NCBI GenBank assembly: GCA_030648205.1
Contig: JAUSIH010000033.1
Span: 1 to 41,501, forward strand
Length of the DNA stretch: 41,501 bases
Origin: Dehalococcoidia bacterium
GTDB taxonomy: Bacteria > Chloroflexota > Dehalococcoidia > JAUSIH01
Direction of reading: 5' to 3'
The translations under genes were made by a program, and so were the position numbers. How positions within the stretch are numbered: the stretch's first letter is position 1; each line of letters begins with the position of its first letter. Under the pieces are notes generated by a model that made no database searches, was not told the DNA's origin, and was given only the letters and a program-made list of their open reading frames with translations. Positions 13,881-37,672 of this stretch are shown piece by piece.

Positions 13881-14348
13881 ATGGCGAACGGCATGGGCAA
13901 AAGCCCGACCCCCCCGGCGACCAACGAGGTCCTTGTCCTGGAAGGTCTCTTCCACCGCTCCTCCGGGCCCGGCGACAAGGCCTATCTCATAGGGAGCACG
14001 TGCAGCGCGTGCGGGTACGTGGCATTCCCGAAGCGAGTCGTGTGTCCCGCGTGCGTCCGCGAGAATACCATGAAGGAGACCCCTCTCAGCACCCGCGCCA
14101 GGGTATTCAGCTTCACCGTCGCGCGCGTCGCGCCTCCCGGCTTCACCGCCCCTTATCTTCAGGCGTGGGTGGATGTGGAGAAGGGGCCTCGCATCTTCTC
14201 ACTCATCGCGGGCGTGGAGCCGAAGGACGACGCTCTGGTTGAAGGACAAGATGTCGAGCTGGTCATCGAGAAGATACGCACAGACGAGGGCGGGAACGAC
14301 GTCATCGGGTACAAGTTCCGGCCCGTCAGCAAGGGAGGCAAGCCATGA
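13881..14348 (+). CDS. DUF35 zinc-ribbon/OB-fold protein (thiolase partner)
   Basis: A 155-residue protein with an N-terminal rubredoxin-like zinc ribbon (C41, C44, C55, C58 in CSAC and CPAC) and a C-terminal OB-fold (about 68-150) with the LQAWVDVEKGPRIFSLIAGV pattern. DUF35 proteins bind thiolase-like enzymes (for example in archaeal acetoacetyl-CoA thiolase/HMG-CoA synthase complexes, BbsA/BbsB and ChsH2/Ltp2) and channel acyl-CoA intermediates. The stop overlaps the thiolase start by four bases (ATGA), consistent with stoichiometric co-expression. AGGAGG at 13866-13871. Confidence 0.9.
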   Translation: MANGMGKSPTPPATNEVLVLEGLFHRSSGPGDKAYLIGSTCSACGYVAFPKRVVCPACVRENTMKETPLSTRARVFSFTVARVAPPGFTAPYLQAWVDVEKGPRIFSLIAGVEPKDDALVEGQDVELVIEKIRTDEGGNDVIGYKFRPVSKGGKP

Positions 14349-18138: not shown

Positions 18139-18209
18139 GCCGCACCTCCAGCACGAAAGTCGCCGCCATTCTAGCGCGGGGGACGACGTTGCGCCACTCC
18201 CCGCGGTGT

Positions 18210-18238
18210 TTGACATGCGCTTCTTTCGCTCCTACACT
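18210..18238 (+). promoter_or_regulatory. Sigma70-type promoter of the second acyl-CoA dehydrogenase
   Basis: TTGACA (18210-18215), a 17-base spacer, then TACACT (18233-18238), about 28 bases before the ATG at 18267. The same TTGACA-N17-TACACT arrangement occurs on the minus strand at 34104-34076. Confidence 0.75.
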
Positions 18239-18266
18239 GGGGCCATCTCGGGTTGGGAGCGTCCGC

Positions 18267-19421
18267 ATGGACAGCGCCGCCACAGCGGAGTTGGGCCAGC
18301 TTGTGGCGCGCGTGCGCCGGTTTGTCGCCGAAGAGGTGTTGCCCGTAGCCAGCGCCTTTGAGAAGCGGGATGAATATCCCACCCACCTCGTCCAGCGCAT
18401 GCGCGAGCTAGGCCTCTTCGCCATGACCATTCCCCGTGAATACGGCGGGCTGGGCATCAACACGACGACATACGCAACGGTCGTGGAAGAGCTTTGCCGC
18501 GGCTGGATGAGCCTGAGCGGCATGCTCCACTCGCCGGGATGCACTCACCTCCTGATTCACTACGGCACGGAGGACCAGAAGCGGCGTTGGCTTCCCCGCA
18601 TGGCCGCCGGGGAGATTATCGGTGTGCTGGCGCTTACAGAGCCCAACGCGGGGAGCGATGTCCAGGCCCTGCAGGCCACCGCCGTTCGACACGGTGATTC
18701 CTACACCATGAACGGCACCAAGCAATTCATAACTAACGCCGTTCATGGAGGACTCTTCGCCACGCTGGTCAAGACGGATACCGCGGCTCGACCTCCGTAC
18801 AGGGGGATCAGTTGCTTCATGCTGGAAAAGGACACGCCCGGTTTCACGGTGGGGCGCAGCCTTCAGAAGCTGGGGTACAAGGGAGTGAGCACGTGCGAGC
18901 TCCACTTCCAGGACGCGCAGGTTGCAGTCAAAAACCTCCTGGGCGACAAGGAGGGTGAGGGCTTCCTGCAACTCATGAGCGGCCTTGAGCTGTCGCGCAT
19001 CCACGTCTCGGCGCGGGCGCTTGGCGAGGCGCAGGCGGCGCTGGAGGCGGCGCTCCGGTTTGCGTCCCAGCGTCAGGCGTTCGGGAAACCCATCGCTCAG
19101 CATCAGGCAATTCTGGTCAAACTAGCGGACATGGCGACTCGACTGCAGGCGGCGCGCTATCTGGTCTCCGCCGCGGCGGCCAAAAAGGACATGGGAGAGC
19201 GGTGCGACCTGGAGGCGGGAATGGCCAAGCTGTTCGCCACCGAGGCCTGCGCGGAGATCGCCATCGAGTCCATGCGCATCCACGGGGGCCGTGGCTATCT
19301 CACGGAGTATCCCGTTGAGCGCTTCTACAGGGACGCCCCCTTCATGGTGATCGCCGATGGAACAAGCGATGTCCTGAAGCTAGTCATTGCACGCAACCTG
19401 TATAAGAAGTATCCTGTCTGA
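18267..19421 (+). CDS. Acyl-CoA dehydrogenase (catalytic Glu position is Asp)
   Basis: About 384 residues starting at ATG 18267 (TGGGAG upstream; an extended frame from 18189 would run through the promoter). Complete ACAD fold with LTEPNAGSDVQALQ and YTMNGTKQFITNAVHGG in the FAD domain, RQAFGKPIAQHQAI and MRIHGGRGYLTEYPVERFYR in the C-terminal domain. The usual catalytic-base motif (Y-E-G-T) reads ADGT, so the Glu is Asp (D364). Electrons would go to ETF, which is not encoded in the window. Closest by pattern to the short/branched-chain type; substrate unknown. Confidence 0.93.
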   Translation: MDSAATAELGQLVARVRRFVAEEVLPVASAFEKRDEYPTHLVQRMRELGLFAMTIPREYGGLGINTTTYATVVEELCRGWMSLSGMLHSPGCTHLLIHYGTEDQKRRWLPRMAAGEIIGVLALTEPNAGSDVQALQATAVRHGDSYTMNGTKQFITNAVHGGLFATLVKTDTAARPPYRGISCFMLEKDTPGFTVGRSLQKLGYKGVSTCELHFQDAQVAVKNLLGDKEGEGFLQLMSGLELSRIHVSARALGEAQAALEAALRFASQRQAFGKPIAQHQAILVKLADMATRLQAARYLVSAAAAKKDMGERCDLEAGMAKLFATEACAEIAIESMRIHGGRGYLTEYPVERFYRDAPFMVIADGTSDVLKLVIARNLYKKYPV

Positions 19422-19501: not shown

Positions 19502-20446
19502 ATGATCCTGGGGACTGCTTCAACATTGACTCCGGTGGACTATCACCTTCCTTCCAAACAGTGGCGCGCTGCTTTCCGCTGGGACTGGAACGAGCAGTGG
19601 GAGCAGAACATGCATCGCGACTACGCCAAGCAGTTCGGTTACAAGGGCGGGTTGGTTGAGGGCGACGTCGTCTTCGAGCACATCATTGACATCCTCATCC
19701 AGTTCTTCGGCGAGCCCTGGTACGGAGAAGGCGAGATTGAGGTCAAGGTGCTGCCTATCTACGAGGGCGAACTCCTGACCACGGGGGCCGTCGTCAAAGA
19801 GCGCACGGAGGAAGAACGCGGCGTGCGCCTCGGCCTCGAAGTATGGATGGCGAAGGAGGACGGAAAGCCTGGCGTCATCGGCAAGGCGAGCTGCCTCGTC
19901 CCACGGCCGTCCGCGCCCGCGCACAAGGTCCCGTCCGTGAAGTTGAGTCACGACGGCATCTGGACGCGCAAGGAGCCCAAGTACGGTCCCGGCCGGCTGC
20001 CGGAGGAATACACGCCTATCACCTATGACGCCGCGGTCGTGGGCGAGATCATGGGGCCCATTGACTTCACCATCAGCGAGGCGAGCCACAAGAAGCACAC
20101 AGCGTTCCAGGGGATATACCACCGCTGGTTCACCGAGGAATCACCCTGGGGAGGGCCACTGCTGTACCCCTTCGAGACGTGGTGCCAGGCCCGTGTCCAC
20201 TCGCGATGGAAGTATGGCCGCATCAATGAGGCCCTTTACGCCTTCGCCAAATGGAAGTTCTACAAACCCATTGAACTCGGCCAACCTCTCTCCGGCTGGA
20301 TGCGCGTGGTGGACAAGTACATGAAGCGCGGCAAGCCCTATATCCTGACCGATAGCTGGACGGAGGACGCGGAAGGAAACGTCATCATGCACGCGCGGGA
20401 GGAGCTTGTGCTGATGCATGAAATCAAGGGGATGAAGATTCGATAG
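19502..20446 (+). CDS. Double-hotdog protein, MaoC-like dehydratase/hydratase
   Basis: A 314-residue protein. The N-terminal half (about 15-140) fits a hotdog domain with the hydratase-type helix segment NMHRDYAKQFGYKGGLVEGD, containing the Asn/His pair of MaoC-like enzymes, and ends GVIGKASCLV. The second half ends with YILTDSWTEDAEGNVIMHAR, like a second hotdog strand set. This resembles FAS1-like/HTD2-like double-hotdog dehydratases acting on acyl-CoA or acyl-ACP. A strong AAGGAGGAG site precedes the ATG. It follows an acyl-CoA dehydrogenase gene by 80 bases, so hydration of its enoyl-CoA product is plausible. Confidence 0.7.
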   Translation: MILGTASTLTPVDYHLPSKQWRAAFRWDWNEQWEQNMHRDYAKQFGYKGGLVEGDVVFEHIIDILIQFFGEPWYGEGEIEVKVLPIYEGELLTTGAVVKERTEEERGVRLGLEVWMAKEDGKPGVIGKASCLVPRPSAPAHKVPSVKLSHDGIWTRKEPKYGPGRLPEEYTPITYDAAVVGEIMGPIDFTISEASHKKHTAFQGIYHRWFTEESPWGGPLLYPFETWCQARVHSRWKYGRINEALYAFAKWKFYKPIELGQPLSGWMRVVDKYMKRGKPYILTDSWTEDAEGNVIMHAREELVLMHEIKGMKIR

Positions 20447-20502
20447 TCCGGCGCGCCTTGCGCCGCGCTACCCCCACGAGAGGAGGCCTGACGAAACAAC
20501 CT

Positions 20503-21195
20503 ATGATTGTTCGCATGCCGGAACGCTTCTACTTCGCGCTCGCCAACTGCACGGACCCCGCGCGGGAGGCCGAGTTCAACGCGTGGTACGACAGGACGCT
20601 GATCCCCACAATCATGGCCGTCCCCGGCGTCCGCGCCGCCTGGCGCTATGCCAGCGCCCACCAGCGTCCCGGGGAGCCCAAGTACGTCGCCATGTACGAC
20701 ATTGACCAGGACATCCGCCAGGTCGTTCTCAACCTTCGGGCCAACAGGGAGCGCGTCGGGCGGGAAGGGAAGTGGATTGACTGCATTGACATCCCCTTCA
20801 CCAGCACGTTCCGGCGCATCCGCACAGACGTGCCTGCCGGGCAGCAGGCGCCGGCCCAGTCCGGCCCCGCTATGATGCCCCACGCCATCCTGCTCGTCCT
20901 GTCGCGGTGCACCGACCCCGCGCGGGAGGCCGAATTCAACCAGTGGTACAACGACACGCACATTCCAGATATCTTGCAGGCGCCGGGTATTCTCTCGTGC
21001 TTTCGCTATGAGAACACCCACCGTAAAGAGGGGGAGCCCGACTACATGGCGCTGTATGAGTTCGCATCGGACGATACCAGGACAATCATGAGGGGCCTCA
21101 ATGGAATAATGGAGGCAAAGCGCCGTGAAGGGCGGATCAGCGGCTGCTATGAGCGATGGCTGAATAATACGTTCGCGCGCATCTATCCCCGGTGA
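20503..21195 (+). CDS. Tandem dimeric alpha/beta-barrel (DABB/EthD-like) protein
   Basis: A 230-residue protein made of two similar halves (about 9-105 and 127-227) joined by a Pro/Gln/Ala linker. Both halves start with CTDPAREAEFNxWY and share the PxI...PG(V/I)...RY(A/E)...PxYxAxY(D/E) pattern of ferredoxin-like DABB domains. A duplicated domain can form the barrel within one chain. Function is unknown; relatives include EthD-like and monooxygenase-like proteins. ATG 20503 is chosen; the AGGAGG at 20481-20486 is rather far (16 bases). It lies 56 bases after the hotdog gene, probably in the same operon. Confidence 0.75.
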   Translation: MIVRMPERFYFALANCTDPAREAEFNAWYDRTLIPTIMAVPGVRAAWRYASAHQRPGEPKYVAMYDIDQDIRQVVLNLRANRERVGREGKWIDCIDIPFTSTFRRIRTDVPAGQQAPAQSGPAMMPHAILLVLSRCTDPAREAEFNQWYNDTHIPDILQAPGILSCFRYENTHRKEGEPDYMALYEFASDDTRTIMRGLNGIMEAKRREGRISGCYERWLNNTFARIYPR

Positions 21196-21229: not shown

Positions 21230-21399
21230 CAGGCCACCTCGCGGGTATGCGACCCGTATATGACTTGACGGCTTTCGTCCCAAGAAAGGGCACATTAGCA
21301 GGACGGCGCTATAGCACGCTCTTTTGATTCGGGGATTGGCTTCAGGCGGTGGAAGTAGTGAGGACACGCGGTTTCAGGCACAACGCGAAGGAGGAAGCT

Positions 21400-23148
21400 A
21401 TGGTCATCACACGACCCCGGTATTTCCTGGCCCTGCCGCTTGCAGCAATCCTGGTGCTGGCGAGTTGCGCGCCCGCGGCGGCGCCGGCGCCCGCGCCCCA
21501 GGCTCCAGCCGTGGCACAACCCACCGCGCCCGCTCCTCGAGCTCCAGCGCCGGCGCAACCCACCGCGGCGCCCGCCCGTCCGGCGGCGACGCCCGCCCCC
21601 GCGCCCGCAGCAGCCGCGCCTGCGCAGCCCGCAGAGCAGCCGCAGGCAGGCGGGACGCTCGTCTCCTGGATATCTGGAGAGCCCAGCACATTGGACCCTC
21701 ATCAGGAGACCTCTTTTATCGGCATTCAGATGGCCACGCCTCCCCGCAGCACGCTGATGCAGTGGGACTCCAATGAACCGGCCGACCAGAAGATCATCCC
21801 GGACCTGGCGGAGAAATGGGACTCCTCCGGAGATGGGCTGACGTGGACGTTCACCCTGCGGAAGGGAGTCAAGTTCCACGACGGCCAGCCCGTGACGTCC
21901 GCGGACGTCAAATTCAGCTTTGAGCGGATCATGAGTCCCCCTGAGGGCATCACGACCCCGTGGAAGATCCTGTGGACGGGCGTCAAGAGCGTAGAGGCGC
22001 CGGACCCCAACACGGTGCGCGTCACCCTGTCCCAGCCAAAGCCGCTCTTTGCCAAGCTGGTGACCTGGTACTACAGCGGGATTCTACCAAAACACATCGT
22101 GGAGAAAGACCCCCAGTCCGCGACTTCCAAGCCCGTCGGAAGCGGCCCGTGGGTCTTCGGCGAATGGCGCAAGGGCGTGTCCATTGAGTTCAAAAAGAAC
22201 AAGGACTACTACCGGCAGGGCCGGCCCTACATGGACAGCATGAAGTTCCTCGTCATCAGGGACGCCACCACGGCTTTTGCGGCTATGCGGACGCATCAGG
22301 TCACCATCGCGGGCCTGGGTACCCTGGGCATCACCAAGAGCCAGGCGGATACCCTCAAGCAGCAGGAACCGAAGATGCAGGTCTGGCGGTACGATTGCGG
22401 CTGCATGGGGCGGCTCGTCTTCAACACCCAGAGAAAGCCTTTTGACGATGAGCGCGTGCGGCGCGCCGCGGCCCTGGTAGTGGACACCCAGAAGGTCATT
22501 GACCTGGGCTACGAGGGCGTGGGGCGTAAGGGCGGGTTCATGGCTCCCGGCCCGTGGAGCGTCCCGGACGCCGAGCTTACGGAGAAGTGGCCGCCCTTCC
22601 GGGGCCCCACTGATAAAGATATTGAAGCGGCCAAGAAGATCCTGGCGGACGCGGGGTATGGCGGCGGTATCAAGGCTACCTTCCTCCAGGCCACCCTCGC
22701 CCGCTACGAGGAGCAGCAGATCGCCATCACGTCTCAGTTGCGCAAGATTGGCATTGAGTCAACGATACGCGTCCTCAATTACCCGGCTACCTTCTTCGAC
22801 GCTGGCCGCCGCGGTGATTTCGACCTGATGGACATGCCCACGGTCTCCCCTATCGACGACCCGGATGTGTATCTGTCCTTCTACGTGACCGGGAACTCGG
22901 AAAACTACGGCAAGTTCAGCGACAAGCAGGTAGACGATCTGTATGCCCGGCAGTCGCGGGAAGTGGACACTGTCAAGCGCAAGGATTTGGCCTTCCAGCT
23001 CCAGCGAAGACTTATGGAATTGGCGCCCGCAGTGGTGCATTTGCACCGCCAATACCCGGGCGCGGCATGGCCCGAGTTGCGCGGTTACAAAGGGCCAGGC
23101 AAGCTGTATGACAACTACAAGTACGAGGATGTCTGGCTGGCTCGCTAG
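21400..23148 (+). CDS. ABC transporter solute-binding lipoprotein (SBP_bac_5)
   Basis: A 582-residue binding lipoprotein. The signal peptide ends in lipobox VLASC (acyl-Cys 23), then a long Ala/Pro-rich linker (about 24-85), then the SBP_bac_5 fold: GGTLVSWISGEPSTLDPHQE, LAEKWDSSGDGLTWTFTLRK, GVKFHDGQPVTSADVKFSFE. ATG 21400 follows AAGGAGG; the open frame from 21349 is not needed. Same architecture and nearly the same length as the protein encoded at 7919-9661, so the two importers are paralogous modules with probably different ligands. Its gene is followed by a strong hairpin. Confidence 0.94.
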   Translation: MVITRPRYFLALPLAAILVLASCAPAAAPAPAPQAPAVAQPTAPAPRAPAPAQPTAAPARPAATPAPAPAAAAPAQPAEQPQAGGTLVSWISGEPSTLDPHQETSFIGIQMATPPRSTLMQWDSNEPADQKIIPDLAEKWDSSGDGLTWTFTLRKGVKFHDGQPVTSADVKFSFERIMSPPEGITTPWKILWTGVKSVEAPDPNTVRVTLSQPKPLFAKLVTWYYSGILPKHIVEKDPQSATSKPVGSGPWVFGEWRKGVSIEFKKNKDYYRQGRPYMDSMKFLVIRDATTAFAAMRTHQVTIAGLGTLGITKSQADTLKQQEPKMQVWRYDCGCMGRLVFNTQRKPFDDERVRRAAALVVDTQKVIDLGYEGVGRKGGFMAPGPWSVPDAELTEKWPPFRGPTDKDIEAAKKILADAGYGGGIKATFLQATLARYEEQQIAITSQLRKIGIESTIRVLNYPATFFDAGRRGDFDLMDMPTVSPIDDPDVYLSFYVTGNSENYGKFSDKQVDDLYARQSREVDTVKRKDLAFQLQRRLMELAPAVVHLHRQYPGAAWPELRGYKGPGKLYDNYKYEDVWLAR

Positions 23149-23159
23149 ACCATGTGTGT

Positions 23160-23206
23160 AGTCCCGTCCTCACGCGCGGCGCCACGCGTGAGGACGGGAC
23201 TTTCTT
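23160..23206 (+). terminator. Strong hairpin terminator/attenuator between binding protein and permeases
   Basis: A perfect 17-bp stem (23160-23176 with 23185-23201), an 8-base loop and a short T-rich tail (TTTCTTA). It lies 11 bases after the lipoprotein stop and about 15 bases before the next ATG. Partial termination, or protection of the upstream mRNA end, would give more binding protein than permease, a common need of ABC importers. Confidence 0.85.
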
Positions 23207-23220
23207 ACTGAGGGCACGTT

Positions 23221-24183
23221 ATGCGGCTGTACGTCATTCGACGGCTCCTCCAGTTCGTCCCCGTCATGATCGCCGTCTCGATTATCATCTTCGCCATCAT
23301 GCGGGTGCTTCCTGGAGACGTGGCCTCGCTGGTCATCTCGGGACCGGGTGGAACTGCCGCGGGCGCTACGCCAGCGGACATTGAGCGGGTCCGAAAGGAG
23401 TTGGGGCTGGACAGACCCTTGCCGGAGCAATACTTGACCTGGATTTCCGGCTTCGTGCGGCTGGACGCGGGGAACTCGATATGGACACACAGCCCCGTCT
23501 TCGATGAAATCAGCCGCCGGTTGCCGCTGACCCTGGAGTTGGCGGTCCTCACCCTTTTGTTCTCCCTTCTATTCGCATTGCCCGCGGGTATTCTTTCCGC
23601 CATGCGCCAGGATACATGGGTGGACTACTTCTTCCGCTTTTTCAGCGTGGGGGGGCTTACCTTACCCACCTTCTGGACGGGCACTCTGGTGATTCTGGCG
23701 CTGGTGCTCGTGTTTCGGTGGATACCTCCCATTGGCTTTGTGAATTTCTGGGAGGACCCTTTCAAGAACCTGCAGCAGATGGTCTGGCCAGCGGCGGTAT
23801 TGGGATACTACTTCTCCGCGGTGGTCAGTCGGATGACCCGCTCCAGCATGCTGGAAGTACTCCGCCAGGACTACGTCCGGACGGCGTGGGCCAAGGGGCT
23901 CAAAGAAAAAGTCGTCGTCATGCGCCACGCCATGGCCAACGCCCTGTTGCCCGTCATCACCATCAGCGGCATGCAGTTTGGGCAGCTCCTGGGGGGTACT
24001 GTCGTAACCGAGACGATCTTCTCTCTGCCAGGTATGGGCAGCCAGCTTATTGATGCCCTCGTCTTCAGGGACTACCCTATTGTCCAAACGGTGATCCTGA
24101 TAATGTCTTTGTGGTTTCTTGTTGTGAACCTCGTGGTGGATCTCCTCTATGGATTGCTGGACCCTCGAATTCGCTATAGCTAA
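23221..24183 (+). CDS. ABC transporter permease, DppB/OppB type
   Basis: A 320-residue membrane protein with the N-terminal VIRRLLQFVPVMIAVSIIIF helix, RVLPGD, the EAA loop LEVLRQDYVRTAWAKGLKEK, the GGTVVTETIFSLPGMGSQLI segment and terminal LDPRIRYS. Its layout is collinear with the permease at 6903-7868, including an identical LEVLRQDYVRTAWAKGL. It sits directly behind the hairpin and shares the operon with the DppC-like gene 45 bases further on. Confidence 0.94.
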   Translation: MRLYVIRRLLQFVPVMIAVSIIIFAIMRVLPGDVASLVISGPGGTAAGATPADIERVRKELGLDRPLPEQYLTWISGFVRLDAGNSIWTHSPVFDEISRRLPLTLELAVLTLLFSLLFALPAGILSAMRQDTWVDYFFRFFSVGGLTLPTFWTGTLVILALVLVFRWIPPIGFVNFWEDPFKNLQQMVWPAAVLGYYFSAVVSRMTRSSMLEVLRQDYVRTAWAKGLKEKVVVMRHAMANALLPVITISGMQFGQLLGGTVVTETIFSLPGMGSQLIDALVFRDYPIVQTVILIMSLWFLVVNLVVDLLYGLLDPRIRYS

Positions 24184-24228
24184 AGAGGTCCCCGTGGCAA
24201 AGAGGTTTCCGCATCCAGGATGCACCCG

Positions 24229-25134
24229 ATGAGCGCGTCTCAGGCGCACGTCGCGGAAGAGCAGGCTCTTCGCCCTCTCCATCGGAGGGGACTCCCCATC
24301 ATGGCGCTCGTCCGCTTCGCTCAGCGCAAGCCTCTGGGCGCCCTCGGCGCCTTGCTGCTGCTGATGATGGTGTTCATTGCGGTGGCCGCACCGGTTATCT
24401 CACCCTACGACCCTATTGACGTCTTTGCGGACAAGCGTTTCACCCCCCCTGGACGAGAGTTTCTCTTGGGAACGGACCACGTGGGGAGAGACATCTTGAG
24501 CCGCATTTTCTACGGGGCGCAGGTCTCGCTTTACGTGGGTGTTCTCTCAGTCGCTATAGGCACCACCGCGGGATGCATCACTGGCCTGATCAGCGGCTAC
24601 TTTGGTAAGCACGTGGACGCGATTATCCAGCGCGCCGTGGATACTATCATGGCCTTCCCCATTCTGGTTCTCGCTCTCCTGGTCGTCACAGTGCTGGGAT
24701 CCTCCGCCGAAAACGTCGTCATAGCGGTGAGCGTCGTGCTCTTTCCTCAAGGCGCACGAGTAGTGCGTTCCGCGGTGCTGGCTGTCAAGGGAAGTGAGTA
24801 CGTAACAGCCGCGCGAGCCGTAGGGGCCACGGACACGCGCATCATGTTCCTGCACATTCTGCCTCAGTGCGTGGCGCCTTACATCGTGCTGGCCACAGCC
24901 CAACTCGGCTGGGCCATTGTCGTGGAAGCCACGCTGAGTTTCCTGGGGGTGGGTACGCCGCCGCCCTGGCCGTCCTGGGGGAACATGCTCTCAGGCCTGG
25001 CCCGCACGTATATCGAACAGACCCCCTGGCTCGCCGTTTTTCCCGGTGTGGCCCTGAGCCTGAGCGTGTTCGGCGTGAACCTCCTGGGCGACGCCCTGCG
25101 CGACGTTCTGGACCCGCGTCTCAAGCGCGCGTGA
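24229..25134 (+). CDS. ABC transporter permease, DppC/OppC type
   Basis: About 301 residues from ATG 24229, which has AGGA eight bases upstream (ATG 24220 would add three residues). Signature FLLGTDHVGRDILSRIFYGA, EAA loop SEYVTAARAVGATDTRIMFL and terminal LGDALRDVLDPRLKRA. Partner of the DppB-like permease upstream. No ATPase genes (DppD/DppF type) follow; the next gene is thiolase-like, so the energising subunits must be encoded elsewhere. Confidence 0.93.
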   Translation: MSASQAHVAEEQALRPLHRRGLPIMALVRFAQRKPLGALGALLLLMMVFIAVAAPVISPYDPIDVFADKRFTPPGREFLLGTDHVGRDILSRIFYGAQVSLYVGVLSVAIGTTAGCITGLISGYFGKHVDAIIQRAVDTIMAFPILVLALLVVTVLGSSAENVVIAVSVVLFPQGARVVRSAVLAVKGSEYVTAARAVGATDTRIMFLHILPQCVAPYIVLATAQLGWAIVVEATLSFLGVGTPPPWPSWGNMLSGLARTYIEQTPWLAVFPGVALSLSVFGVNLLGDALRDVLDPRLKRA

Positions 25135-25180
25135 TCCCATCCGGGCGACTCACTTCACCGGCGTGGACCGCGGAATAGAC

Positions 25181-26350
25181 ATGCGTGTGCAGCACCTGCG
25201 CGCCATGGCGGCGGTGGTGGGGGTGGGCAAAAGCGTCATCGGACGCAACTTGGAAGTGGACGCCCTGACCCTGATGTCGCACGCCTTCAAGGCCGCGCTG
25301 GAGGACAGCGGGCTGAAGAAGGAAGAAGTGGACGGACTCATCGTCAACACGGGCGGCGCGGAGTGCGACCGTCTCCCGCAGCTCCTGGGCATTGACGTCC
25401 AGTGGAGCAGCCAGACCTGGTCGCACGGCCGGATGTCGGGTATCATTCTTGAGTGGGCGGCCATGGTAGTGCACGCGGGACTGGCCCGCAACGTCCTGTG
25501 CATCGCGGGCTACAGCTCGCACGCCGTCAGGACCCGCACCGTGCGCGGCGGCAGCGGCGAGGCCTACCGCGCCGGAGGAGGGCCACACTGGGAGGCCCCG
25601 GAGTACGGCATCATCCACCCGGGGACGCTGCCCGCACTGGCTTTCCAGCGCTATTGCCATCTCTACGGCTACAAACCGGAGCTGCTGGGCGCCGTGCCGG
25701 TGGCGCAGCGCAAGCATGCCTCTCTGAACCCGGACGCCGTTTATCGCCAGCGCATCACCCTGGACGACTACAAGAAGGCGCGCTTCGTGGTCGAGCCTCT
25801 GCGGCTCTACGACTTCGCGGTGGTGAACGACGGCGCGGTAGCCCTCATCGTGAGCTCGGCGGACCGGGCGGGCGCCTGCCGCAAGCCGCCGGTGTACCTC
25901 TCCGGCATGCAGGGCATGCAGGGGGGCAAGGAATGGGTGATATTCTCGCGCAGCAACATGGGCGTCGCGCAACAGTCGCTGTCCCGCGACGCGCGGCGCG
26001 TGAATCGGGCTGTCTACGAGATGGCGGGAGTTGAACCCAAAGACATAGACGTGGTGGAGATCTATGACAGCTTCTCGCCGGAAGTCATATTCGACCTCGA
26101 AGACTTCGGCTTCTGCCCGCCGGGCGAGGCGCTGGGCTGGATTCAAGGCGGGCGCATCGAGCCGGGCGGCGACCTGCCGGTGAACACGCATGGAGGTCAT
26201 CTCTCCGAAGGGATGCTCGGCGGGTTCAACCACCTGGCCGAGGCGGTCAGGCAGGCGCGGGGCGAGTGTGGAGAACGCCAGGCCCCCAACGCCCGTCTGG
26301 TCCAGTACACATTGGGTCCCGGCGTATCCATCATCTTTCGCGGCGGATGA
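25181..26350 (+). CDS. Thiolase-like protein lacking catalytic Cys (putative aldolase-type, Ltp2-like)
   Basis: About 389 residues from ATG 25181 (GTG 25163 is an alternative). Thiolase fold by pattern (MAAVVGVGKS..., NDGAVALIVSSADRA), but the Cys loop reads WSSQTWSHGRMSGIILEW with no Cys, and the EVHD His is Tyr (VVEIYDSFSPEV). The last His loop is NTHGGHLSEGMLGG. Thiolase-like proteins without the Cys and paired with DUF35 include the retro-aldolases of steroid side-chain breakdown (Ltp2/ChsH2) and the BbsAB type. The adjacent DUF35 gene supports a two-subunit carbon-carbon lyase. Substrate unknown. Confidence 0.85.
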   Translation: MRVQHLRAMAAVVGVGKSVIGRNLEVDALTLMSHAFKAALEDSGLKKEEVDGLIVNTGGAECDRLPQLLGIDVQWSSQTWSHGRMSGIILEWAAMVVHAGLARNVLCIAGYSSHAVRTRTVRGGSGEAYRAGGGPHWEAPEYGIIHPGTLPALAFQRYCHLYGYKPELLGAVPVAQRKHASLNPDAVYRQRITLDDYKKARFVVEPLRLYDFAVVNDGAVALIVSSADRAGACRKPPVYLSGMQGMQGGKEWVIFSRSNMGVAQQSLSRDARRVNRAVYEMAGVEPKDIDVVEIYDSFSPEVIFDLEDFGFCPPGEALGWIQGGRIEPGGDLPVNTHGGHLSEGMLGGFNHLAEAVRQARGECGERQAPNARLVQYTLGPGVSIIFRGG

Positions 26351-26369
26351 GCCAGCCGGAGAATAGCCT

Positions 26370-26810
26370 GTGACGAACGAACAGCCGCCACTGCCATCCA
26401 TCACGCCTCTCTACGAGCCGTACTATCGCTATACACGGCAGCATGAGCTGCGGATGCAGCGTTGCCGGGACTGCGGCCACGTGCGCTATCCGTTTGCGGC
26501 GCTATGTCCCGTCTGCCACTCGGAAGGCGCCGAGTGGTCCCGCATGAGCGGCCGCGGCGCCGTCGCCTCGTTCGCCATCTGCCATCAGGCGTTCCATCCC
26601 TGGTTCCAGAGCCGCCTGCCGTACAACGTGGCGCTGGTGGACCTGGAGGAGGGGCCGCGCGTCCCCACGAACATCGTAGGCGTGCGCAACGAGGACATCC
26701 GCATCGGGATGTCGGTGGAGGCGGAGTTCGAGGACGTGACCGACGAGATCACACTGGTGAAGTTCAGACCGAGGGGGCCTGGCGGGAAACAAGATAACCC
26801 AGCGCACTAA
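26370..26810 (+). CDS. DUF35 zinc-ribbon/OB-fold protein (partner of the Cys-less thiolase)
   Basis: A 146-residue protein with zinc-ribbon cysteines in CRDCGHVRYPFAALCPVC and an OB-fold (about 60-135) containing VALVDLEEGPRVPTNIVGV. It starts with GTG 26370 behind GGAG and lies 19 bases after the thiolase-like gene, so the two are almost certainly co-expressed as subunits. In characterised pairs the DUF35 chain is needed for activity and stability of the thiolase-fold chain. Confidence 0.9.
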   Translation: MTNEQPPLPSITPLYEPYYRYTRQHELRMQRCRDCGHVRYPFAALCPVCHSEGAEWSRMSGRGAVASFAICHQAFHPWFQSRLPYNVALVDLEEGPRVPTNIVGVRNEDIRIGMSVEAEFEDVTDEITLVKFRPRGPGGKQDNPAH

Positions 26811-26945: not shown

Positions 26946-27989
26946 ATGAACAAGGGCACAATGAAGGCCGCGGTGCTTCGGCAGAAGGGCGGCCCCGAGA
27001 TACTCCGCGTCGAGGAGTGGCCCATTCCGAAGCCGGGATTCGGCCAGGCGCTGGTGCGTGTGCGGGCATGCGGCGTCTGCAATCACGAGGTCGTCGTCCG
27101 CAGCCCGGACCTCACCCACAAGTCCTACCATCCCCCCCAGGTGCTGGGGCACGAGATAGCGGGCGAGGTGGTGGAGCTGGGCGAAAGGGCGCATGAACTG
27201 AAGGTCGGCGACCGGGTGACCTGCACGAACAAATCTAGCTGCCGCGTCTGCGAGCGCTGCCGCCGCGACGACGAGATTCACTGCCCGAACGGCGACATGA
27301 ACGAGGGCGGCTACGGCGAGTTCGCCGCCATCAACGAGGAGAGCCTGGTCAAAATCCCGGAGGGGATGCCCTTCGAGCACGCCGCCATCTGCGGGTGCGC
27401 GGTGGGCATCGCGCTGCGCGGCGTCCGGTGGGCCGCCCGCGTGGCCGTCGGGGAGACGGCGCTGGTGACGGGCCCCAGCGGCGGGATAGGCGCGCACTCG
27501 GTGCAACTCGCGCGGCTGGCGGGCGCGCGCGTCATCGCCGCGACGACGTCCGAGGATAAAGCGGAGGCGCTGCGGCAACTGGGCGCCGACGAGGTGGTGG
27601 TGACCGGCGGCAAGCCCTACCACAAGCAGGTGATGGCGCTGACGGGCGGCCACGGGGTGGACGTCGTCATTGACACCGTCGGGTCGGCGGTGTTCGAGTC
27701 GGCCTTCCGCTCGATGGGCTACCATGCGCGCTATGTGCTCATCGGCGAGTTCTACGGCGACACTCTGCCCGTGAGCGCGGCGTGGATGTTCCGCAAGGAG
27801 ACGACGCTTCAGGGGTCGGGGGCTGCGCACCGGTCTGAGCTGGAGGACTGCCTGTGCCTGCTCCACGAGGGCAAGATCAAGCCCGTCATCGCGAAGACAT
27901 ACCCGCTCGCGCAGATCGCGGACGTCCACCGGGAGATGGAGCGCAAGAAGCACGTTGGGCGGCTGGTGATTACGTACAACCAAGCCTAG
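26946..27989 (+). CDS. Zinc-binding alcohol dehydrogenase (MDR superfamily)
   Basis: A 347-residue medium-chain dehydrogenase. Catalytic zinc ligands are C45 (CGVCNHE) and H69-E70 (VLGHEIAGEV). The structural zinc loop is C99, C102, C105 and C113. The Rossmann motif is GPSGGIGAHSVQLA (about 155-168). It oxidises an alcohol or reduces an aldehyde/enone with NAD(P). In position 46-48 it has NHE rather than the usual H-T-D/R-S-D, so the proton relay is not typical. It stands alone between a REP-like palindrome and an AT-rich gene. Confidence 0.92.
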   Translation: MNKGTMKAAVLRQKGGPEILRVEEWPIPKPGFGQALVRVRACGVCNHEVVVRSPDLTHKSYHPPQVLGHEIAGEVVELGERAHELKVGDRVTCTNKSSCRVCERCRRDDEIHCPNGDMNEGGYGEFAAINEESLVKIPEGMPFEHAAICGCAVGIALRGVRWAARVAVGETALVTGPSGGIGAHSVQLARLAGARVIAATTSEDKAEALRQLGADEVVVTGGKPYHKQVMALTGGHGVDVVIDTVGSAVFESAFRSMGYHARYVLIGEFYGDTLPVSAAWMFRKETTLQGSGAAHRSELEDCLCLLHEGKIKPVIAKTYPLAQIADVHREMERKKHVGRLVITYNQA

Positions 27990-29155: not shown

Positions 29156-29629
29156 CTACTTGCCCTTGAGCGGCACGAAGTAGAAATCGGTCAGGCGGCC
29201 CTCGCGCTTCTCGCGGAAGACGGCGCGCACGCGCAGCCCCGGCTTCACCGCGCCGATGCGGACCGGCCCGACAAAGACGGTGTTGTAGATGCACGTATCC
29301 GCGCCGTCAAGCTGAATCAACGCCAGGACGTAGGGCATGTCCACGTGCTGGTGCAAGGAATAGTTCGAGGGCACGTAGAAGACCTCGATGGCGCCCCGCA
29401 CGGTGCCCGTGCCCGGCAGGTCCACCCAGGCGGTCTTGCTGTAGCAATCGCTGCAATCAATACGCGGAGGGCACCACACCTTGCCGCACGTGGCGCAGCG
29501 CGTGCCTGTCAGCTTGGCGTCATCCTTGAGCGTTCGGAAGAAGGGAGAGATGCCCCCATAGCTATAGAGGTAGTCGTTATAGATGCGGTCCCGGACTTCA
29601 AACGGTTCCATGTTCATGGCGGGTATCAC
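29156..29629 (-). CDS. DUF35 zinc-ribbon/OB-fold protein (third copy)
   Basis: A 157-residue protein with an N-terminal helical segment, zinc-ribbon cysteines C45, C48, C59 and C62 (CATCGK and CSDC, with an extra C53), and an OB-fold with VLALIQLDGADTCIYNTVFV. The start overlaps the thiolase stop by four bases (29626-29629), the sign of a coupled partner. Last gene of the long minus-strand run. Confidence 0.9.
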   Translation of the reverse strand: MIPAMNMEPFEVRDRIYNDYLYSYGGISPFFRTLKDDAKLTGTRCATCGKVWCPPRIDCSDCYSKTAWVDLPGTGTVRGAIEVFYVPSNYSLHQHVDMPYVLALIQLDGADTCIYNTVFVGPVRIGAVKPGLRVRAVFREKREGRLTDFYFVPLKGK

Positions 29630-30822
29630 CTTTCCAGAACGATGACCGCGCCCAAAGAGGCGGATGGGCCGCCCACGCTCTCCACGACGCCCCGGCCCTT
29701 GCGTAAGCGCACCTGCCGCTTTCCCGCGTCCTCGCGCAACTGGAGCGCCACTTCGCCGACGCTGTACACCTCGGACGGCCCCGCGATGTGCCCGCAGGCC
29801 ACCCGTCCGCCGCTGGGGTTCACGGGCAGCGGCCCCGTCATCTCGGTGAACCCTTCGTCCACCAGTCGCCCGCCCTCGCCCACCTTGCAGAAGCCCAATT
29901 CCTCGTACGCCAGAATCTCCAGGCCGCTGTAGAGGTCGTGGACCTCCGCCACGTCGAACTCCTGCGCCGGCTTGCGGACGCGCGCCATCCTGTACGCCTG
30001 GCGGGCGGCGCCGCTGATGGCGAGGGTGCGTCCCAAGTTGCGCGCGCTCATGTCAGGCGTGGATGCCTCATGGCTGGTGCCGACGCCCGTTATCCAGACC
30101 GGCTTCTTGGTGAGGGCGCGCGCCCTGTCCTCGCTGGCTATGACAAGAGCAGCCGCGCCTTCGCTGAACAGACAGCACATGTACATGGTGCTGGGCCAGG
30201 CGATGATGCGGGAGTTCAGCACGTCATCCACGGTCATGTGGAGCCGGAGCTGGGCGTTCGGATTGTTGAAGGCGTTCTCGTGGTTCTTGACCGAGACTTT
30301 CGCCATCTGTTCGGGCGTAGGGCCGCCGTAGCGCTTCATGTGCGCCGTCAGGATGATTCCCCACGCCGCGGGCGGCATGGGCGTATAGGGGTGCTGCCAC
30401 ACCACGTCGTGGGTGATGGACTCGGACATCATCACGCCCTCGCCGCGATGCATGTTCGCGGGATTGACCAGGTCCGCGGACTTCTGGACGCCCACCACCA
30501 CCACCACGTCAGACAGGCCCGACGCGACCTCCGCGAAGGCCGCTCGGACGGCATAGCAGCCGGTGGAGGCGCCCGCAGTCACCCGCAGGCCCGGCTTTCC
30601 CCGCAGGCCCAGGTAGTCATGCACCATGTTGTCGCTGGTCATCTGGTGCATGAGCATGTCGCTGTAGATGCCGTAGACGGCGCTATCTATGTCCTTGGTG
30701 GTGAGCCTGGCGTCCTCCAGGGCATTCTTGGTGGCGGCGAACGCCAGCTCCTGGTAGTTGAGGTCCGGATAGCGGGCCTTGAATGGTATCTGCCCCACGC
30801 CGACAATAGCAACACGTCGCAC
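29626..30822 (-). CDS. Thiolase family protein with displaced active-site Cys
   Basis: A 398-residue thiolase-fold protein. Histidines H295 (EVHDLYSG) and H345 (CGHIAGPS) are kept. The Cys loop reads TAGASTGCYAVRAAF: by alignment to the thiolase at 14345, the nucleophile position is Ala (A85) and a Cys (C89) lies about one helical turn later. It could still be a thiolase, or a variant lyase/synthase. GTG start with GGAGGT. Two bases separate it from the SCP2-domain gene upstream and it overlaps its DUF35 partner downstream. Confidence 0.88.
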   Translation of the reverse strand: MRRVAIVGVGQIPFKARYPDLNYQELAFAATKNALEDARLTTKDIDSAVYGIYSDMLMHQMTSDNMVHDYLGLRGKPGLRVTAGASTGCYAVRAAFAEVASGLSDVVVVVGVQKSADLVNPANMHRGEGVMMSESITHDVVWQHPYTPMPPAAWGIILTAHMKRYGGPTPEQMAKVSVKNHENAFNNPNAQLRLHMTVDDVLNSRIIAWPSTMYMCCLFSEGAAALVIASEDRARALTKKPVWITGVGTSHEASTPDMSARNLGRTLAISGAARQAYRMARVRKPAQEFDVAEVHDLYSGLEILAYEELGFCKVGEGGRLVDEGFTEMTGPLPVNPSGGRVACGHIAGPSEVYSVGEVALQLREDAGKRQVRLRKGRGVVESVGGPSASLGAVIVLER

Positions 30823-31568: not shown

Positions 31569-32771
31569 CTATTTGATTACACTGGCCTTGCGCAGCCGGG
31601 CCACCCGCGTGGGACTGAGCCCGGCCCACTCCAGGATGCTATCCGTGTGCTGGCCCAGCAGGGGCGGCGGCAGACGGATGGAACCGGGCGTGGCGTCCAT
31701 ATGCCACGGGATTTTGGGCATCTTGACCGCGCCGGCCTTCGGGTGCTGGACCTCCACAAAAGGATCGAGCGCCTGAATATGGGGATGGCGCATGAGGGAT
31801 TCGTAGGTGTTCACCGGCACGGCCTCGCCGTTGTGGCCTCGGATAAGCGCGATCAACTCATCGTTGGTCTTGTCCTTGAAACCCCGCTCCCAGATGTGCT
31901 TCACGAGATAGGCCCACTTTCCTGTCCCCGTCGCGTTGCGCCCCGCCTGCTGGAAGCGCGGGTCCGTGAACGCCTCCTCCACGCCCAGGTCCAGCGCCAG
32001 CTTGTCGAAGTCCTCCTGGGAGCCGCGCCGGAGCATGAAGTAGATGCGACCGTCCTTGGTCTTGTAGCCCTGCTCCGGCGGCTTGATATACGTGTCGCAG
32101 TGGAAGCCGATCCACTCGTCCGGGTCGCTGATGGCGGCCCAGATGATACCGCGCATGTGCAGCAGCGCCCCCAGCATGCTGACGGAGACGCGCTGGCCCT
32201 CTCCGGTCATCTCGCGATGGTACAGGGCTGCGAGGATGGCCTCGAAGGCGAAGGTGCCGGCGTTGACGCTGGCGATGTCCGCGCCGACGCGGATGGGCGG
32301 CTGGCCGATGACCCCCAGCGATCCCCAGTAGTCGGACATGGCTTGCACGGGCAACTCGGCGCCAGCCATGCCCGCCAGGGGGCCTTCGTCGCCGAACGCC
32401 GTAATCTCGCAATAGATGACTCCCGGCTTCTTGCGCCGGAGTGACCGGTAGCTGACGCCCAGGTCCTTCGCGCTGCCCGCGCCGATGTCCTCCACCACAA
32501 CGACGTCGGCCTTCTGCGCCAGGGCCTGAAGGACGCGCCGTCCCTGAGCCGCGGCGATGTCCAGGGCAATGCTCTCCTTGTTGCGGTTGAGTGAAAGGAA
32601 CGCAGGGCTTTCGCCGTTCACGAACGGCGGGCCGTAGCCGCGGGCGCAGTCTCCAGAGAGAGGCTCCACCTTGATGATTTTGGCGCCCGCGTCGCCCATC
32701 TGCATCGTGCAGGAAGGGCCGCAAAGGCCCTGCGTCAGGTCAAGGACTACGAACCCGTCCAGCGCTCCCAT
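31569..32771 (-). CDS. CaiB/BaiF class III CoA-transferase
   Basis: A 400-residue family III CoA-transferase. N-terminal GALDGFVVLDLTQGLCGPSC with MGDAGAKIIKVEP is diagnostic. The catalytic Asp is D165 (RVGADIASVN). The family moves CoA between carboxylic acids (formyl-, carnitine-, succinyl-, bile-acid- and similar donors). AAGGAAGG precedes the ATG. It is the second of two consecutive CaiB genes (52 bases apart), which suggests either heterodimers or two successive acids. Confidence 0.93.
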   Translation of the reverse strand: MGALDGFVVLDLTQGLCGPSCTMQMGDAGAKIIKVEPLSGDCARGYGPPFVNGESPAFLSLNRNKESIALDIAAAQGRRVLQALAQKADVVVVEDIGAGSAKDLGVSYRSLRRKKPGVIYCEITAFGDEGPLAGMAGAELPVQAMSDYWGSLGVIGQPPIRVGADIASVNAGTFAFEAILAALYHREMTGEGQRVSVSMLGALLHMRGIIWAAISDPDEWIGFHCDTYIKPPEQGYKTKDGRIYFMLRRGSQEDFDKLALDLGVEEAFTDPRFQQAGRNATGTGKWAYLVKHIWERGFKDKTNDELIALIRGHNGEAVPVNTYESLMRHPHIQALDPFVEVQHPKAGAVKMPKIPWHMDATPGSIRLPPPLLGQHTDSILEWAGLSPTRVARLRKASVIK

Positions 32772-32823
32772 GTAGCCTTCCTTGCTCCGGAGGATGAAGG
32801 ATTCACGGTCAGGCGAGAGGCCC

Positions 32824-34032
32824 CTATTTGGCGGAGGTCACCCGCACCGGCTCAGCGGTAGGCGACGAGAGGTCAAATCCCAGGCTGCGCGCTACCTCTT
32901 CCGTGGCCCCGCCGGGCGTCGTGCCCTTGAAAAAGGACGCGGGCGTCTTCCCGAAGCTCCACGGAACGCCGCCCATGTACATAGTGCCCCAGGGTGTGTC
33001 CATAGGGACGATCAGCCCGTTCCGCAGCACCTGCCGATGCTCCAGCAGGGCCTGATAGTCCAGGAACTGTCCATGAGGGACTCTGGCCTCGGTGAGGCGA
33101 TAGACCCACCAGGCGGTTGGCTTTGTGGCGAAGGTCTCGGCGAGCTGCGGGACCAGGACGTCGCGGTTCTGCACGCGCTGTGGATTGGTGGCGAAGCGCG
33201 GGTCCCCGGCCAGGTCCTCTCGGCCTATCGCCCGGCACAGGCGCGGCCACTGGCTGTCCTCCACCACCGCGACTGCCAGATACTTGCCCTCCTGACACCG
33301 AAAGGCCTCGCTGGGAACAATGGTCGGGCAGGCGGTGCCCATCGGCGGCGGCTGCTTGCCCGTCGCGAAGTACTCCGCCAGGCGCGTCCCCTGGAGGGCA
33401 AGGGAGCACTCCGCCATCGAAAGATGGAGACGCTGGCCCTGGCCGGTGCGCGCGCGGTGGATGAGCGCCTGGAGGATGCCGGCCACTATATGAGAACTGG
33501 TGTTGATGTCCTTATGGGCGTAGTAGCGGAGGATTTCGCCAGGCCCACCGGGAGGGCCTTGCGTAGAGGCCCAGCCTGTGAACGCTTGAGTGGTGGGATC
33601 GTTCCCTCCCCACTTCGTCATGGGGCCGATATAACCGTACGCGTTGGACGAACAGTAGATGATGCGCGGGTTCAGGCGGGATACTACCTCATAGCTGAAA
33701 CCCAGTTCCGCCGCCGTGCCTTGCGTCATGTTCTCAACGAGGATGTCGCACGTCTTGACGAGCTCCAGTGCGACGGCTCGCTGGTCTTCCCGCTTGAGGT
33801 TCAGGACGACGCCCTTCTTGTTGATGTTGCATTGGGCATAGACAACACTCATCTTTTTCTTGTTCGGGAGGACGCTGCGAATCATGTCCCCCGGCTCTGG
33901 CGCCTCGATCTTGATGACCTCCGCGCCGAGAGCGCCCAAAAGCATGGTCGCCCAGGGGCCGGCCGCGGCAATGGTCATATCGAAGACGCGGACGCCTTTG
34001 AGGGGGCCGGTCGGAGTCGTTTTGCGGGCCAT
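32824..34032 (-). CDS. CaiB/BaiF class III CoA-transferase
   Basis: A 402-residue family III CoA-transferase with LKGVRVFDMTIAAAGPWATM and LGALGAEVIKIEAPEPGD at the N-terminus. The catalytic Asp is D175 (YYAHKDINTSSHIVAGILQA). It is the first gene of the long minus-strand run (CaiB, CaiB, EthD, SCP2, thiolase, DUF35) and lies about 45 bases downstream of a strong promoter. Donor and acceptor acids cannot be deduced. Confidence 0.93.
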   Translation of the reverse strand: MARKTTPTGPLKGVRVFDMTIAAAGPWATMLLGALGAEVIKIEAPEPGDMIRSVLPNKKKMSVVYAQCNINKKGVVLNLKREDQRAVALELVKTCDILVENMTQGTAAELGFSYEVVSRLNPRIIYCSSNAYGYIGPMTKWGGNDPTTQAFTGWASTQGPPGGPGEILRYYAHKDINTSSHIVAGILQALIHRARTGQGQRLHLSMAECSLALQGTRLAEYFATGKQPPPMGTACPTIVPSEAFRCQEGKYLAVAVVEDSQWPRLCRAIGREDLAGDPRFATNPQRVQNRDVLVPQLAETFATKPTAWWVYRLTEARVPHGQFLDYQALLEHRQVLRNGLIVPMDTPWGTMYMGGVPWSFGKTPASFFKGTTPGGATEEVARSLGFDLSSPTAEPVRVTSAK

Positions 34033-36457: not shown

Positions 36458-37672
36458 CTACGTCAGCACCTTTTGCTCCGCCAATTGTTGGACCGCGTCG
36501 CCGCCCATGCCCAGGATTTCTCCGAACACATACCCGTTGTGCTGACCCAGCAATGGCGCGGGTGTCCGGACGTCCGTCGGCGCGCCGCTCATTTTCCAGG
36601 GGATGCCGTAGATGATATCCGTGCCCGTGGCGGGGTGCTCAACCTCCACGTGGACGCCCCGCGCCTGGAGCTGAGGGTCGAAGTAGCGCTCGCCGGTATC
36701 CAGCACGGGACTCGCGGCCACGCCGGCGCGCTGGAGTATTTCCGTCACTTCGTACGGTTCCCTGTCGCGCGTCCACGCGGCGATTATGGCGTCGAGTTCA
36801 CCGCGGTGGCGCAGTCGCTGGAAGGGGTCCGCAAAGCGCTTGTCCGCCGCCAGGTCAGGCTGGCCGATGGTCTCGCACAGTCGCCGCCATTCGTGGTCAG
36901 ATGCTACCACAATGGCGACCCACTTGTCATCGCCCTTGCACCGGTACGTGTTGTGCGGCGCCATACGGGGATGGAGGTTCCCCAGCGCCGTCGGGCTGCG
37001 GCCCGTCATCGTGTATTCCATGATGGCCTCGCCAGTCACGCTTATCGACGTCTCCCACTGCGCCAGGTCAATGTACTGGCCCTGGCCGGTGCGGTTGCGG
37101 TGCCGGAGCGCCGCGAGGACCGCGAAGGCCGCGTGAGCGGCTGCGCTGGGGTCGCAGTAGACGCCCTGGGTGCCGAGCGCCCGCTCGCCTGGATAGCCCG
37201 CCAGAGCGTCCAGCCCCGCAAGCGCGCCCACGGTCGGCCCATACGTCGGCAGGTCGCGCAGCGGACCGTATTGGCCTGCGCCGGACAGGGAGATCATGAC
37301 AAGGTCTGGCCGGTAGCGCCGCAGAGCCAGGTAGTCCAGGCCGAGCCTGGACAGGACTCGAGGCGAGAAGTTCTCGATGACGACGTCGCTCACAGCCACG
37401 AGGTGACGAAGGATGTCCTGTCCCCTTGGATTCGCCATGTCCACCGTGACGCACATCTTGTTGCGGTTGATGGTGTGGTACATGGGGTCTTTTTCCGGAT
37501 CTTTCGCGACGTTGTCCGCGCTCATCCGGAGGGCGTCCAGACGGCTGGAGGTCTCCACTTTGACGACCTCCGCGCCCATGTCTCCGAGGATGCGCGCGGC
37601 CAGAGGCCCGGCGATGACCGTGCCGAAGTCTATGACCCGGAATCGCTTCAAGGGGTACTTATCCGCGGACAA
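36458..37672 (-). CDS. CaiB/BaiF class III CoA-transferase
   Basis: A 404-residue protein with the family N-terminus FRVIDFGTVIAGPLAARILG and MGAEVVKVE. Catalytic Asp D174 lies in GVYCDPSAAAHAAFAV. It begins with TTG at 37672 with AAGGAG about 11 bases upstream; no better start is visible. Twenty bases separate it from the next CaiB gene upstream, so the two form a tandem pair like the one at 31569-34032. Confidence 0.92.
   Translation of the reverse strand: MSADKYPLKRFRVIDFGTVIAGPLAARILGDMGAEVVKVETSSRLDALRMSADNVAKDPEKDPMYHTINRNKMCVTVDMANPRGQDILRHLVAVSDVVIENFSPRVLSRLGLDYLALRRYRPDLVMISLSGAGQYGPLRDLPTYGPTVGALAGLDALAGYPGERALGTQGVYCDPSAAAHAAFAVLAALRHRNRTGQGQYIDLAQWETSISVTGEAIMEYTMTGRSPTALGNLHPRMAPHNTYRCKGDDKWVAIVVASDHEWRRLCETIGQPDLAADKRFADPFQRLRHRGELDAIIAAWTRDREPYEVTEILQRAGVAASPVLDTGERYFDPQLQARGVHVEVEHPATGTDIIYGIPWKMSGAPTDVRTPAPLLGQHNGYVFGEILGMGGDAVQQLAEQKVLT

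Follow-up and report, generated by a model that had tools for sequence, protein, structure and literature searches.

The question raised by the locus at positions 25163 to 26810 is which reaction would be carried out by a thiolase-like protein that lacks the nucleophilic cysteine of thiolases and is encoded next to a DUF35 protein. The window, that is, the whole stretch of DNA analysed here (41,501 nucleotides), is one complete contig of a draft genome (2.69 Mb, 120 contigs, 95% complete) from an uncultured member of the Chloroflexota. To our knowledge, and also according to the papers searched, only two members of the family of DUF35-linked thiolase-fold proteins without the Cys have a proven activity, both of them steroid enzymes; none of the open-access papers searched dealt with a non-steroid family member. 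The family, fold, clade, residue identities, gene order and the fold of a neighbouring hydratase were computed in this work. It is proposed, with a probability of about 0.58, that the two proteins form a two-subunit retro-aldolase. In the breakdown of a non-steroid acid taken up from outside, this enzyme would split a 3-hydroxyacyl-CoA to yield a shorter acyl-CoA together with an aldehyde or ketone.

The Cys-less thiolase-like catalytic subunit, T1, was assigned to an open reading frame on the + strand (25163..26350, GTG start, 395 aa) that matched Pfam Thiolase_C_1 with an E-value of 8.5e-35. An alternative ATG start at 25181 (389 aa) had been used in the preliminary description of the locus; residues are numbered here from the GTG, and the ATG-based numbers are lower by 6. 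In a sequence search of the PDB, Ltp2 (6ok1_A) was the first match of T1 (E 1.5e-53), and 4u4e and Sal (9myr_A) came next. An AlphaFold2 model of T1 was built from 35 relatives (pLDDT 88.9, pTM 0.91). The best Foldseek match of this model was again 6ok1 (E 1.8e-37, TM 0.86), followed by 4u4e (the third match) and 9myr, and then by BbsB and thiolases. By sequence and by its modelled fold, T1 is a thiolase-fold protein.

The DUF35 partner, D1, is encoded 19 bp downstream of T1 on the same strand (26370..26810), so that the adjacency of the two genes noted before was borne out. The open reading frame matched Pfam OB_ChsH2_C (1.1e-20) and zf-ChsH2 (7.5e-10). All four cysteines of a C4 zinc ribbon (C-x2-C-x10-C-x2-C, residues 32-49) are present and are followed by an OB fold. 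DUF35 chains ranked first in the PDB search with D1, namely 9myr_B (E 8.6e-25) and ChsH2 of 6ok1_B (E 2.2e-21). Two D1 chains would flank a T1 dimer.

The active-site positions of T1 were located in an alignment with eight PDB references, which were entered as the aligned stretches printed by phmmer. The thiolase Cys column was occupied by Gly89 within the stretch WSHGRMS (the former nucleophile loop H88-G89-R90), the His of the thiolase HDxF motif was replaced by Tyr301 of a YDSF motif (Y301-D302-S303-F304), and the His of the GHP motif was replaced by Met351. Two further key residues were His346 and Arg207, the latter at the CoA pyrophosphate position and equivalent to the CoA-binding Arg216 of Sal. 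The loss of the Cys and the change of the first His to Tyr, both claimed in the preliminary description, were confirmed, and the search for an active-site Cys that it had called for found none in the alignment. Residues were counted over 119 family members among the matches listed: Gly was found at the Cys column in 115/119, the catalytic Tyr was kept in 116/119, and Asp302 was present in 119/119. The Gly and Tyr substitutions are neither chance nor sequencing errors, because nearly all of the 119 relatives have both.

A maximum-likelihood tree of 101 rows placed T1, Ltp2, Sal and 4u4e in a 91-row family, designated YDxF, with a support of 100/99. BbsB, the SCP2 thiolase and acetoacetyl-CoA thiolases fell outside it, so the phylogeny that had been suggested put T1 with Ltp2 and Sal and not inside the true thiolases. 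The features of YDxF membership, namely grouping with Ltp2 and Sal, absence of the nucleophilic Cys, Tyr for the HDxF His and a DUF35 gene, were all found in T1/D1. Within the family, T1 belonged to a 12-row clade (100/99) distinct from both the Ltp2 (TcLtp2) clade and the Sal clade. When the catalytic columns were removed, the placement of T1 inside its own clade was not resolved, which leaves the number of independent His swaps uncertain. T1 scored 259.9 bits against the curated lipid-transfer protein family NF005892, below its cut-off of 469. The claim that T1 matches the Ltp2/ChsH2 subclass therefore stood for the class, as the closest solved structures are Ltp2-ChsH2, Sal-Shy and 4u4e, and failed for a simple Ltp2 type, given the separate clade, the sub-threshold score, the lack of both the second Tyr of Ltp2 and the Cys of Sal, and one close relative without even the first Tyr. 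An Ltp2 or Sal orthologue was ruled out by residues, clade and family cut-off. The YDxF family is large and extends over Chloroflexota, Proteobacteria, Actinomycetota, Myxococcota and others, often with several copies per genome; the contig search matched at least 502 relatives, of which the best 80 were kept.

The two characterized enzymes were compared with T1 at the catalytic positions. In Ltp2, Tyr294 and Tyr344 serve as base and acid, while Sal has Gly at the old Cys position and uses Tyr302, which is essential, and Cys304; Gln347 and Gln352 adjoin Cys304, the C304S variant was inactive, and both enzymes are proven aldolases (PMC12329534). The alignment related Met351 of T1 to Tyr344 of Ltp2 and Gln352 of Sal, Ser303 to Cys304 of Sal, and His346 to Gln347 of Sal. 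Position 351 was occupied by Tyr in 72, His in 35, Gln in 5, Met in 3 and other residues in 4 of the 119 members. The T1 clade carried a signature W86-x-H88-G89-R90 on the former nucleophile loop, which was invariant in the first 16 members and, once more genomes were added, was found in 26 distinct sequences from several phyla among the matches listed. The residue pairs at positions 346 and 351 in these 26 were (Leu,His) in 17, (His,Met) in 3, (Gln,Gln) in 3, (His,Gln) in 2 and (Gln,Tyr) in 1. The two closest relatives of T1 among the matches listed also had Met351 with His346, and the three Met351 proteins (T1, L052 and L098) had His346, His152 and Ser303 in common.

The His apparently moved by five residues, since His346 is paired with Met351 in the kin of T1 and Leu346 with His351 elsewhere. 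In the alignment this looks like a shift of His between two positions, both of which lie beside the catalytic dyad in Sal. It was tentatively proposed that T1/D1 represent a functionally distinct clade of non-steroid aldolases, marked by W-x-H-G-R, in which the proton donor moved within the loop to give a Tyr-His pair; we regard this as possible rather than probable. The donor would be His351 (with Leu346) in most members; in T1 and the proteins nearest to it, which have Met351 or Gln351, it would be His346. A merely shifted second catalytic Tyr was rejected, as the alignment contained no Tyr near Met351. His88 was retained as a secondary idea for a replacement acid only; it also occurs in members whose residue 351 is still His or Tyr.

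Two variations were recorded among the relatives. In L098 (5986-7158, a Betaproteobacteria MAG; found again as L149), one of the two closest relatives of T1, the catalytic Tyr is replaced by Leu (CLDSFSP), and the remaining clade signature is intact. Relatives with Gln351, the residue found in Sal, are accompanied by DUF35 proteins whose zinc ribbons score poorly or not at all (L054, 5453-5881; L067, 7168-7569), which recalls the altered C3H1 site in Shy. Most T1 relatives among the matches listed had a DUF35 gene beside them, and none was found beside the relative L053.

The genome contained seven thiolase-like and seven DUF35 matches, and the window itself held two additional thiolase/DUF35 pairs, absent from the preliminary description. 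The D2/T2 pair (13881-15523, +; T2 at 14345-15523) adjoins an enoyl-CoA hydratase and an SDR. T2 retains the Cys (NACASATT) together with HDAM and GHPVGATG, and its sequence suggests that T2/D2 is probably a true DUF35-type thiolase. The T3/D3 pair (29156-30822, -) lies beside SCP2, EthD and two CaiB genes. T3 is also Cys-less, with TAGASTG at the Cys loop and with HDLY and GHIAG retained, and its branch, weakly supported (94/50), was basal in the YDxF family; it is a different kind of Cys-less thiolase-like protein. A further YDxF protein with its own DUF35 is encoded elsewhere in the same genome (L048:4389-5549, G000:C109). It has YDPF and SEVYLQG, with the Tyr retained, and in the tree it was nearer to Ltp2 than T1 was.

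T1 is preceded by an ABC importer of the SBP_bac_5 type (21349..25134, +; a binding protein, 21349-23148, and two DppB/C-type permeases), which ends 46 bp before the T1 ATG. The three open reading frames were assigned to an importer from their sequences and their similarity to importer genes beside the relatives. A Zn-dependent medium-chain alcohol/aldehyde dehydrogenase (26946..27989, +; Pfam ADH_N / ADH_zinc_N, NCBIfam and PDB matches) follows 135 bp after D1. Both neighbours were as described previously. The importer, T1, D1 and dehydrogenase genes are co-stranded with gaps of 72, 36, 46, 19 and 135 bp; the importer is preceded by a promoter-like site and its binding-protein gene is followed by a strong hairpin, each identified only by its agreement with a consensus.

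Further upstream, an acyl-CoA dehydrogenase (18189..19421, +; Pfam Acyl-CoA_dh_1/M/N) is located 80 bp before a gene at 19502..20446 (+), the product of which had no Pfam match. The two halves of this product resembled separate MaoC and FAS1_DH proteins, as in a fusion of subunits that are encoded singly in relatives. Its AlphaFold2 model (pLDDT 79.4) was a double hotdog, and the Foldseek matches were the mesaconyl-CoA hydratase MeaC as the best (E 7.2e-13, 14% identity) and a Chloroflexus MaoC protein. It was assigned as a double-hotdog MaoC-type enoyl-CoA hydratase because of these half-by-half matches and the modelled fold. Between the hydratase and the importer, a gene at 20458-21195 (+) encodes 245 aa with two EthD/ABM-like halves, of which the second alone scored in Pfam and NCBIfam. 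On the other side of T1, further enoyl-CoA hydratases and four CaiB-type transferases were found: two CaiB/BaiF class III CoA-transferases at 31569..34032 (-) and two more at 36458-37672 and 37693-38910 (-), all with Pfam CoA_transf_3. The hydratase and CaiB genes are not part of the transcription unit immediately around T1. Both contig ends have transposase genes nearby (Mutator type and IS1595 type; 336-1592 and 40645-41496).

The neighbourhoods of 81 relatives in named loci were surveyed, of which 24 belonged to a superclade that includes T1 (designated GR) and 57 to other branches. Importer genes (SBP_bac_5/Dpp or TctC) were found within 6 kb in 11/24 of the GR superclade vs 6/57 of the others (Fisher p 8e-4, a statistic that ignores kinship), and alcohol dehydrogenase genes in 7/24 vs 4/57 (p 0.013). 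Relatives from the W-x-H-G-R clade had CaiB genes nearby in 7/13 cases and AMP-forming ligases in 5/13, and MaoC was a neighbour in 0/13 of the T1-clade relatives elsewhere. In a Brevundimonas MAG (L063:3512-9181), a T1-clade gene is clustered with an AMP ligase, an alcohol dehydrogenase, a FAS1_DH-type hydratase, a CitE-type lyase and a PEP-mutase-like gene; this cluster could help to find the substrate of the clade. The steroid marker HsaA gave no match above the cut-off in the 95% complete genome, a result that bears on the aerobic 9,10-seco route only. The set of importer, alcohol dehydrogenase, MaoC, acyl-CoA dehydrogenase and CaiB genes fits the CoA-thioester catabolism of an imported acid, not that of steroids. 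The earlier suggestion of a non-steroid substrate was thus upheld, with less weight, by the importer and CaiB context and the HsaA result, and such a substrate is probable for T1/D1.

For T1/D1 we infer complex formation, activity, proton donor, substrate and the following pathway order. The acid would be taken up by the SBP_bac_5 importer and activated by a CaiB-type transferase, the candidate acid activator. The acyl-CoA dehydrogenase would perform the first oxidation, the MaoC protein would hydrate the product to a 3-hydroxyacyl-CoA, T1/D1 would cleave it by a retro-aldol reaction, and the candidate for handling the aldehyde product is the Zn-alcohol dehydrogenase. Tyr301, because of its conservation, would act as the base that deprotonates the 3-hydroxyl. 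The enolate would be reprotonated most likely by His346, or by Tyr301 itself, and not by a second Tyr as in Ltp2 or a Cys as in Sal; the role of His346 is a hypothesis drawn from the alignment. It may be speculated that the conserved Arg90 beside the active-site loop, together with CaiB and TctC neighbours, would be in keeping with a substrate that bears a second carboxylate. A role resembling mesaconyl/malyl-CoA lyases, prompted by the hydratase fold match and the Brevundimonas cluster, was not supported: CitE-type lyases are already encoded by the genome itself, the fold match has only 14% identity, and the Brevundimonas locus has CitE in addition to the T1 relative.

The membership of T1 in a family that contains both proven retro-aldolases is well supported by the tree and the modelled fold. 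The retro-aldol activity itself is suggested by phylogenetic bracketing, not by a conserved full catalytic set: an aldolase ancestor would be the simplest reading, because Sal and Ltp2 share the ancestral node of T1. Counting against it, Tyr301 alone in T1 matches a residue proven catalytic in Ltp2 or Sal, the MaoC and CaiB genes belong to other transcription units than that of T1, MaoC does not recur beside the T1-clade relatives (0/13), and L098 has no catalytic Tyr. The replacement of both proven second catalytic residues, along with His88, Arg90, His152 and His346, which are specific to the clade or to the Met351 trio, would also suit another enolate reaction of a CoA thioester (decarboxylation, retro-Claisen cleavage or Cys-free acyl transfer) in a fold whose members catalyse a variety of reactions. 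TbSLP, which has a YDCF motif, slowly decarboxylates malonyl-CoA, whereas Sal does not (PMC12329534). As the ancestral node spans both proven aldolases, and as both the hydratase and the alcohol dehydrogenase next to D1 agree with an aldehyde made from a 3-hydroxyacyl-CoA, we consider such a reaction unlikely. Less likely still is a weakened or dead paralogue retained as a scaffold or CoA-binding partner. Ser303 and Met351 eliminate both known proton donors, L098 has lost the Tyr too, and the genome holds seven thiolase/DUF35-type paralogues; yet the T1 frame is intact, D1 is intact with its four zinc cysteines, the CoA-binding Arg is conserved, and the presence of W-x-H-G-R in 26 sequences across phyla argues for selection on the site.

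In favour of an aldolase acting on steroid or bile-acid side chains, as a Chloroflexota counterpart of Ltp2 or Sal, the nearest characterized relatives are steroid aldolases, and the acyl-CoA dehydrogenase, MaoC hydratase and DUF35/aldolase of the window make up the set known from the igr steroid module (PMC12502768). Given the separate clade, the score below the Ltp2 family cut-off, the oligopeptide type of the importer and the HsaA result with its limits of route and completeness, this reading is very improbable. The idea of a true thiolase or an HMG-CoA-synthase-like Claisen enzyme with a Cys misplaced by the alignment draws on the thiolase fold, on family names in annotation libraries and on the presence of such a protein, T2, in the window. 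It is largely refuted and scarcely credible: no Cys lies at or beside the column in the alignment, the His residues of HDxF and GHP are replaced by Tyr and Met, the tree puts T1 outside the thiolases (100/99), and a shifted Cys was ruled out by alignment and tree alike.

The T1 clade is unstudied and its active site is altered, and the proven activities of the family are steroid-specific. If the T1 clade is indeed an aldolase that applies a Tyr-His pair to a small substrate taken up from outside, the fold evolved at least three different active sites to perform one and the same C-C cleavage, and a catabolic step so far hidden in uncultured Chloroflexota can be put to the test. Enzymes of this kind are also wanted as biocatalysts that form C-C bonds.

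Among known systems, the best structural and sequence match of T1 is Ltp2-ChsH2(DUF35) from Thermomonospora curvata (PDB 6OK1), which likewise has a thiolase fold without the nucleophilic Cys, a Tyr-Asp-x-Phe motif and a DUF35 partner with a C4 zinc ribbon. The identity between T1 and this Ltp2 is ~35%, the clades differ, and T1 has no steroid context; T1 has YDSF instead of YDHF, Met351 instead of the catalytic acid Tyr344, and W-x-H-G-R instead of GYGGGAA. The bile-acid aldolase Sal-Shy(DUF35) from Comamonas testosteroni (PDB 9MYR, ~33% identity) shares with T1 the Gly at the Cys position, the Tyr, a non-Tyr residue at the Tyr344 position and the Arg (Arg216, Arg207). It differs in Cys304 (YDCY) vs Ser303 and in Gln347/Gln352 vs His346/Met351, and the DUF35 of Shy is fused to MaoC and has a C3H1 zinc site, whereas D1 is free-standing with a C4 site. 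The Sphaerobacter thermophilus 'putative thiolase' (PDB 4U4E), for which no reported function was found, resembles T1 in YDSF and the lack of the Cys; unlike T1, it has His (GGLSYTHPG) at the Met position and branches near Sal. Benzoylsuccinyl-CoA thiolase BbsAB (PDB 7PXP) is also composed of thiolase-fold and DUF35 subunits, but its catalytic Cys and His are retained and it falls outside the YDxF family; bbs operons also hold CaiB-type transferases, an acyl-CoA dehydrogenase and a hydratase. The Tyr-His pair proposed for the T1 clade would thus stand beside the Tyr-Tyr pair of Ltp2 and the Tyr-Cys pair of Sal.
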